From: Flavobacteriia bacterium
Lineage (GTDB): Bacteria > Bacteroidota > Bacteroidia > Flavobacteriales_D > Crocinitomicaceae
Direction of reading: 5' to 3'
DNA length: 35,834 bases
NCBI GenBank assembly: GCA_947455515.1
Contig: CANGOF010000015.1
Location: 1 to 35,834 of the forward strand
Shown here: positions 21,175 to 24,895 of the stretch, one piece after another
Layout: every line of letters starts with the position of its first letter
How positions within the stretch are numbered: the first letter of the stretch is position 1
Made by a program: the position numbers and the translations under genes
Notes under the pieces: generated by a model
Told to the model about the DNA's origin: nothing
What the model saw: only the letters and a program-made list of their open reading frames with translations
Database searches by the model: none

Positions 21175-21180
21175 TTTTTT

Positions 21181-21222
21181 TTAATTTGTAGGGATGTAGT
21201 ATGCTACATCCCTACAAATTAA
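21181..21222. terminator. Bidirectional terminator / GTAG-type REP-like palindrome
   Basis: Two 19-bp arms pair perfectly: TTAATTTGTAGGGATGTAG (21181-21199) and its complement at 21204-21222, around a 4-base loop TATG. T-runs follow on both strands, so it can stop both fabG transcription (plus) and paaC transcription (minus). The core begins GTAG and ends CTAC, like the palindrome inside the RAYT gene at 24395-24423. Confidence 0.9.
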
Positions 21223-21226
21223 AAAA

Positions 21227-23744: not shown

Positions 23745-23778
23745 TATTGACTACTGAAAAAACTGATTTTAGTCAATA
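23745..23778. promoter_or_regulatory. Candidate operator upstream of paaA
   Basis: A perfect 9-bp inverted repeat, TATTGACTA (23745-23753) and TAGTCAATA (23770-23778), is separated by 16 bp. It lies 62-95 bp upstream of the paaA start. Two dyad half-sites spaced by about two and a half helical turns could bind a dimeric repressor or two dimers. No regulator gene for it is present in the window. Confidence 0.35.
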
Positions 23779-23968
23779 ATGGGGTGAATGTAAATATCAA
23801 TTAGCTATTAAAATTTATCATTTAAATTTTCTGTGAAAACGTTCTTTTTTTGTTGTTATCTATTTTTTAAAATCATCTTTTTCACTAATTTAATATAAAA
23901 AGGAGGAAAATTAAACCCTTAAAATCTCAATATAAACCTATTAAGAATGAATTAAAAATCGTTTTAAA

Positions 23969-24742
23969 ATGTCAGAATTAAAATTTAAAAACAAATACCG
24001 TATACCATCCAATCGTTTGAAAAATTGGGATTATAGTACCAATGCAGCCTATTTCATTACAATCTGCACACAAAATCGTGAACATTATTTTGGAGAAATA
24101 AAAAATGGTGAAATGCAATTAAATGAATTAGGTGAAAACGCAACCCGTTTTTGGTTGGATATACCGATACATTTTCCATTCATTGAATTGGGGAATTTTG
24201 TCGTGATGCCAAACCATACGCATGGGATATTGATAATTGATAAATTGCCAATTAATATGAATGGTTGTGGTGTAACGAAAAACGATATGGGAAATGAATG
24301 GGACAGCGGGAACGGTGTGGTTGGACGTGACGGCGGGAACGGTGCGGTGGGACGTGACGGCGGGAACGGTGCGGTGGGACGTGACGGGTATGGGGTAGAT
24401 ACGCCCAAATTGGGCGTATCTACGTCCCCATCGTCACGTCCATACCCGTCAACCCCATCCCCATCACACGTTTCATCAAACACCCGTATTTCAACCAAAC
24501 ATATCGAAACCGAAAAACCGAAAAACGGCGGGAAAAATGAACAATGGAAACCGGGCACAATTGGCGTGATAATAAATCAATACAAACGGATCGTTACCAT
24601 TAATAATCGAAAAATTAATCCTGATTTTAAATGGCAATCCAATTATCACGATCATATTATTCGGAATTCTTTTTCATTTGAAAATATTCAAAATTATATT
24701 GAAAAAAATCCATCTAAATGGAACGAGGATAAATTTTATTAG
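23969..24742 (+). CDS. REP-associated tyrosine transposase (RAYT, Y1/IS200-like)
   Basis: This single-strand DNA nuclease of 257 residues belongs to the Y1 (HUH) superfamily. The HUH motif is PNHTHGILII (about 82-91). The catalytic tyrosine is likely that in GVIINQYKRIV. The end (FKWQSNYHDHIIRNSFSFENIQNYIEKNPSKW) is the classic RAYT tail. The start, RLKNWDYSTNAAYFITICTQNREHYFG, is equally typical. RAYTs act on REP palindromes, usually with a GTAG foot, and lack the mobility of true insertion sequences. The middle (about 110-175) is a low-complexity insert encoded by three 27-bp repeats and a perfect palindrome. No terminal inverted repeats or target duplications were seen around the gene. Confidence 0.88.
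   Translation: MSELKFKNKYRIPSNRLKNWDYSTNAAYFITICTQNREHYFGEIKNGEMQLNELGENATRFWLDIPIHFPFIELGNFVVMPNHTHGILIIDKLPINMNGCGVTKNDMGNEWDSGNGVVGRDGGNGAVGRDGGNGAVGRDGYGVDTPKLGVSTSPSSRPYPSTPSPSHVSSNTRISTKHIETEKPKNGGKNEQWKPGTIGVIINQYKRIVTINNRKINPDFKWQSNYHDHIIRNSFSFENIQNYIEKNPSKWNEDKFY
24308..24388 (+). repeat. Three 27-bp tandem repeats inside the RAYT gene
   Basis: Units begin at 24308, 24335 and 24362, each starting GGGAACGGTG and ending GACGTGACGG plus one base. They encode GNGxVGRDG three times. The last two are nearly identical; the first has two or three substitutions. The GC content here is much higher than in flanking DNA. Confidence 0.9.
24383..24450. repeat. REP-like palindrome embedded in the RAYT reading frame
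   Basis: At 24395-24423 a perfect 14-bp stem, GTAGATACGCCCAA and its complement around a single A, begins GTAG and ends CTAC. Outer arms GACGGGTATGG (24383-24393) and CCATACCCGTC (24440-24450) also pair. GGACGTGACG of the tandem repeats is complementary to CGTCACGTCC (24431-24440). The palindrome is translated as VDTPKLGVST without breaking the frame. Confidence 0.85.
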
Positions 24743-24895
24743 GATAGAAATTTACAAGGAAATAATATTCATTCTCAATATAACGATACTATCAGATTCA
24801 TTGTACAATAATAAACAGTAGAATTCTTGTTAATCATAACAGAATCCGGATCGCAGATTATAAAAACATTCTCTCCATTGTTCGTAAGTTATATT

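Follow-up and report, generated by a model that had tools for sequence, protein, structure and literature searches.

A 35,834-nt stretch of DNA from a Flavobacteriia bacterium, here called the window, contains a gene for a RAYT (TnpA_REP), a bacterial DNA-cutting enzyme of domesticated type, with a perfect palindrome in the middle of its coding sequence, starting with GTAG, ending with CTAC and translated in frame. This raises the question of what the palindrome is and what has kept it inside the gene of a transposase. How RAYTs and REPs are matched over evolution is an open question, and the lineage studied here offers one enzyme and one candidate site, with no visible dispersed population.

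The RAYT gene and its variable insert

The gene lies at 23969..24742 on the forward strand and encodes 257 aa of the Y1 HUH transposase type, with the HUH motif NHTH (H83, H85) and the catalytic Y243. In an alignment of 46 RAYTs, relatives plus a few from distant phyla, H83, H85, W222 and Y243 were among the invariant residues. A profile of the RAYT family matched the solved E. coli TnpA_REP (4er8), and the AlphaFold2 model of the window protein gave fold matches to 4er8, IS608 TnpA and ISDra2 TnpA, which bears out the identity given in the initial annotation. With the curated model REP_Tyr_transpos (NF047646) the protein scored 40.8 bits (E 1.8e-10), below the cut-off of 80, and Pfam Y1_Tnp, present in 26 of the 46 relatives, was missed. 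As the long insert splits the NF047646 match, we read the shortfall as a failing of the score and not as a sign of the wrong family. We concluded that the 257-aa ORF is a RAYT. Its enzyme core is under strong purifying selection, with dN/dS of 0.04–0.14 at dS of 0.29–1.25 between six orthologues.

Orthologue comparison and pLDDT delimited a variable insert of 93 aa (24263..24541, forward strand), predicted to be disordered. In the AlphaFold2 model most of it has a pLDDT below 50, and it is bounded by core strand 83–90 and helix 198–214. The palindrome-bearing insert thus sits between the HUH motif and Y243, in a loop, as had been proposed from the sequence. The homologue alignment that had been suggested as a check showed an insert kept in place and variable in length (39–116 aa in the six orthologues).

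The RAYT sits between paaA and dnaX in G000 (the genome of the window), G004, G005 and G010. In G001, G008 and G009 the whole unit, positions 23777–24876 of the window, is missing and the flanks are joined almost directly; its gain or loss was therefore clean. When filled and empty sites at 23777–24876 were compared, neither terminal repeats nor a target duplication could be seen.

The palindrome and its surrounding repeats

The palindrome GTAGATACGCCCAAATTGGGCGTATCTAC is found at 24395..24423 on the forward strand. Its 14-bp arms are perfect and it is read in frame as VDTPKLGVST, as first described; the spacer is 1 nt. With a foot at either end (GTAG and CTAC), it is a double-foot REP-like element. 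It is one of only two palindromes in the window with arms of at least 10 bp (spacer up to 9). When the codons were shuffled synonymously a 14-bp arm was reached in 3 of 1000 shuffles. This test was judged weak because the peptide itself nearly dictates the palindrome, and comparative evidence was counted as stronger for the same reason. Because of the palindrome, an open frame of 157 aa that crosses the insert on the reverse strand (24085–24558) encodes VDTPNLGVST.

The palindrome is the centre of an imperfect long hairpin (24377..24441, forward strand), whose 32-nt arms, 24377–24408 and 24410–24441, are 78% complementary. A perfect 12-bp inverted pair, with its left member at 24382–24393 and its right member at 24440..24451 (forward strand), bounds the inverted unit. 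A 27-bp tandem repeat with the consensus GACGGCGGGAACGGTGCGGTGGGACGT occupies 24302..24387 on the forward strand (3.2 copies, 94% match). The further inverted segments and the three 27-bp repeats reported around the palindrome were thereby recovered. Set against the definition of a REP element, the window palindrome is short and GTAG-tagged, lies within the RAYT ORF instead of being extragenic, and is single copy instead of repetitive in a genome assembly that is about 87% complete.

Folded as single-stranded DNA, an 81-nt region reached -31.2 kcal/mol (z = -7.1), a value matched by none of 200 shuffles. As mRNA the hairpin segment gave a z of -2.8 and was matched by one shuffle in 200, which would suit a regulatory hairpin in the RAYT mRNA that slows translation or alters decay, with or without RAYT binding, and leaves expression low. 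REP hairpins have indeed been proposed to down-regulate RAYT expression (PMC3733652). However, the hairpin lies mid-coding, far from the start codon, and its flanking arms vary between orthologues. Moreover, such a hairpin alone would leave unexplained both the GTAG/CTAC feet and the identity with dispersed intergenic REPs seen in other lineages. We consider this explanation unlikely.

Occurrence of the palindrome in the genus

Dispersal was tested through pattern searches only, in 13 congeneric genomes. The core GCCCAANTTGGGC occurred eight times, always within six RAYT orthologues: one copy in each of G000, G004, G005, G010 and G011, and three in that of G003. Outside the orthologous RAYTs it was not found in the 13 genomes, several of which are incomplete assemblies (86.5% for the genome of the window), and no further copies with up to 3 mismatches in a 27-mer were detected in them. 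No dispersed REP population is visible as the source of the window palindrome. Other double-foot families are dispersed, each at low copy number: one, starting GTAGGGA, has 14 pattern matches in the genome of the window, and another, starting GTAGANAC, has several in congeners. A genome search for GTAG...CTAC palindromes, as had been proposed, therefore returned dispersed members of other families, whereas the family of the window palindrome was found nowhere else. This is a mixed result for the original description, which a lack of related palindromes elsewhere would have spoken against.

The 14-match family has a member in the window itself, an intergenic double-foot REP (GTAGGGATGTAGTATGCTACATCCCTAC, 21177–21226) with 11-bp perfect inverted flanks between convergent genes; at this locus other congeners have different REPs and G004 has an ordinary terminator-like hairpin. 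A candidate REP flanking the RAYT gene downstream (GTAGAATTCTTGTTAATCATAACAGAAT, 24818–24845) was dropped, as its fold was weak in the window and not above shuffles in G004 and G005.

In two other RAYT lineages, represented by six genes in four genomes (G005:C30, G008:C1, G008:C5, G009:C41, G010:C1 and G010:C40), an internal 28-mer is identical to dispersed copies of the same genome. This supports naming the internal copy the cognate REP.

Palindromes across RAYT homologues

Among the 46 RAYTs, a palindrome with arms of at least 9 bp was found in the insert of 30 and in the conserved core of two; 16 inserts were without one. GTAG at one end was combined with CTAC at the other in 16 of the 30. 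Examples are GTAGAGACGCAATGCATTGCGTCTCTAC in L014 and L047, GTAGGGATAGGGCATGCCCTATCCCTAC in L048 and L054, and GTAGGGGCGACCCATTGGGTCGCCCCTAC in the Chloroflexi RAYT L041, which are translated in the two frames that put no stop codon in the foot. Palindromes are thus a family-wide property of the insert. Another RAYT lineage in the genome of the window, represented by L044 (G000:C32) and L053 (G004:C18), carries several differing palindromes in one insert, with a short GCATCGC-like core in common.

These counts bear on the explanation that the palindrome is a functionless old double-foot REP in a tolerant loop, kept palindromic only by a mutational bias, template switching at hairpins. Random insertion at the density of dispersed REPs would give about 0.001 per insert, and insert palindromes in 30 of 46 RAYTs exceed this about thousandfold. 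In addition, no source population for such a REP is visible in any of the 13 genomes. We regard this origin as quite possible, and as the main rival of the resident-site explanation given below.

Conservation at the DNA level

No position of the palindrome core changes among the eight copies, which share one reading frame, while pS in the gene reaches 0.61; GCCCAA is unchanged in every copy over this divergence. The codons CCC and GGC are used in eight of eight, and account for just 3.4% and 3.7% of Pro and Gly codons, respectively, in six window genes. In the seven distinct palindromes 93.9% of the stem cells pair and the covariation is 0.218; no shuffle out of 500 was as high on either measure, although the shuffles ignore relatedness and the eight copies, which come from six species and include three from a single gene, are a small and non-independent sample. 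In slid-partner controls pairing was at most 43%. The invariant rare codons and the compensatory stem changes are good but not final evidence that the palindrome is kept at the DNA level. The plain version of the earlier suggestion, an old REP insertion kept in frame, does not account for an invariant core and a compensated stem at pS up to about 0.6, nor for the lack of any other copy in 13 genomes.

The feet are less constant. In G010 one foot is lost (CTGC), and in G003 one palindrome starts with GTTG and two are without a foot. Either the two ends need not both carry a strict GTAG, or the site is in decay in these genomes.

At the protein level each of the eight copies retains P-[KN]-L-G, as would be expected if a linear motif, DTPKLG, bound a partner and the palindrome simply followed from the codons. 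That the rare codons CCC and GGC are invariant argues against this, as do the unrelated peptides encoded by the palindromes of other lineages (GRDAMHCVST, VETRHALSLQ) and the insert itself, predicted disordered and highly variable. We therefore give a role of the peptide very little credence.

Inversion and remodelling around the palindrome

The surroundings of the palindrome differ among the congeners through inversion, inverted duplication and tandem repetition, and the arms flanking it differ between orthologues. A 60-bp unit (24382..24441, forward strand), which in G000 consists of TGACGGGTATGGG-palindrome-GTCCCCATCGTCACGTCC, has one orientation in G004 and G005 and the other in G000 and G010; once inverted, the window unit is identical to that of G005 at 58 of 60 positions, and the reading frame stays open whichever way the unit lies. 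Copy number of the 27-bp repeat varies: 3.2 in G000 and higher in G005, with no clear copy in G004.

The common orientation in G000 and G010 could be explained by transfer of a RAYT allele between the two lineages, which is possible. Synonymous divergence between these genomes is 0.32 in the RAYT versus 0.72 in paaA and 0.69 in dnaX, and the low value suggests either exchange of RAYT alleles or constraint at the nucleotide level.

Template switching between inverted repeats is known to produce inversions and duplications, including within coding sequences (PMC8604942, PMC8794818). By analogy, hairpin-induced template switching during replication probably remodelled the surroundings of the palindrome. 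The same process speaks for a functionless REP: it makes arms alike, inverts spacers and generates tandem copies, in coding DNA as well (PMC8604942, PMC8794818), and inversion with inverted or tandem duplication is seen both in the RAYT and around the dispersed REPs of the genus. The damaged feet in G010 and G003 point the same way. But template switching preserves the complementarity of the arms and not their sequence, and GCCCAA is invariant in eight copies.

A further explanation is that the RAYT acts on its own gene, and that its recognition of the single-stranded hairpin causes the 60-bp unit to invert and duplicate in frame. We consider this improbable. If true, the insert would be self-editing, both orientations would be translatable and the enzyme would always travel with its substrate.

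Architecture of dispersed REPs

At 34 loci, one per orthologous group, the double-foot REPs of the genus have locus-specific perfect inverted flanks with a mean of 9.0 bp; permuted flanks averaged 1.0 bp and did not go beyond 2.4 bp in 2000 permutations. The dispersed REPs are thus the centres of longer palindromes, for example at L077:1034–1095, L103:593–646 and L110:598–659. A description of longer palindromes with locus-specific arms around double-foot REPs was not found in the literature searched. REP-free relatives have neither arm at two loci, so the arms are no older than the REP and did not serve as its target hairpin. Insertion of REPs into the loops of existing terminator hairpins was rejected on this ground, and also because at 29 of the 34 loci the left flank ahead of the REP is rich in T, the reverse of what a terminator would show.

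Orthologous REP loci showed flank copying and tandem half-REP units, some of them 27 bp long. One locus exists in three states in G010, G008 and G009 (L066, L070 and L078): with non-palindromic flanks, with the right flank shifted towards the inverse of the left, and with an added half-REP and inverted right flank. These changes look like template switching. Tandem units of half-REP plus arm were observed beside full REPs at L090:1460–1528, L108, L105, L114 and L129, with a length of 27 bp at L090 and L108. The 27-bp repeats and additional inverted segments of the RAYT thus belong to a type that is common around REPs of this genus.

A candidate recognition site resident in the RAYT gene

We give roughly even chances to the explanation that the palindrome is a resident candidate recognition site of the RAYT type, a cognate double-foot REP within its own RAYT gene. 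It would sit in the only part of the protein where nearly any sequence can be accommodated in frame. The RAYT would bind, and perhaps nick, the internal site as a single-stranded hairpin, and the site would be retained; retention by recognition would mean that enzyme and substrate are inherited together. Template switching at the hairpin would meanwhile remodel the surroundings of the resident site.

Characterised TnpA_REP requires GTAG and cleaves the REP as a single strand (PMC8266576). By analogy the window RAYT is expected to recognise GTAG, and recognition of the palindrome is the corresponding proposal. The RAYT may also nick its own gene and regulate itself. Retention of the palindrome by selection is likewise plausible, but template switching alone can keep palindromes perfect and yield compensatory changes (PMC8794818), which leaves selection for the site unproven. 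For a RAYT without dispersed REPs, the internal palindrome may be the sole substrate. Recognition of the palindrome by the enzyme would account for the joint inheritance of enzyme and substrate; without recognition, template switching by itself would be enough to keep a palindrome in coding DNA perfect from species to species.

Comparison with known systems

The general arrangement, a RAYT gene carrying its own REP-type hairpin, was published in 2018 by Quentin et al. (PMC6006769), and the literature searched contained no other description of RAYT-internal REPs. In their subclass 2.4, listed together with the group 4 RAYTs of Bertels et al., TnpA_REP genes hold in-frame REPs, generally between the HuH and Y motifs, and some of these are double-foot (GT[AG]G...C[TC]AC). 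Their beta3/alphaC insert differs from gene to gene in both length and sequence, and an 8-aa insertion at the end of alphaB is a further trait of the subclass (PMC6006769). The window RAYT likewise has a variable beta3/alphaC insert, an in-frame double-foot palindrome, the exact WQ motif and a Bacteroidota host. It differs in its HuH motif (NHTH, not NH[IFV]H) and its Y motif (YIEKNP, not YIxNNP). Also unlike subclass 2.4, its palindrome was not detected at any other place in the genome, the gene has no convincing REP beside it and the unit is inverted between congeners. The gene fits the subclass in anatomy, with two of three short motifs one residue off.

Di Nocera et al. (2013) described GTAG-tagged REPs as palindromes of 20–40 bp, some of them inside genes (PMC3733652). 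The window palindrome is also short, GTAG-tagged and intragenic, but it is not repetitive, is confined to one RAYT gene lineage and is tagged at both ends. With the TnpA_REP of E. coli and Stenotrophomonas (PMC8266576; 4er8) the window RAYT shares the fold family and the HUH motif with one Tyr, whereas the REPs of those systems are extragenic and numerous and their enzymes are without a hairpin-bearing insert. Perfect coding inverted repeats with arm homogenisation and spacer inversion, as seen here, are known from Nematomorpha mitochondria (PMC6649704) and yeast (PMC8604942), but those palindromes are not recognition-type sites of a transposase. New in the present lineage are a core found only in the orthologous RAYT, its conservation at the DNA level and the in-frame 60-bp inversion between congeners. 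New in the genus are two RAYT lineages whose internal and dispersed REPs are identical, and dispersed REPs that lie inside longer, locus-specific palindromes.
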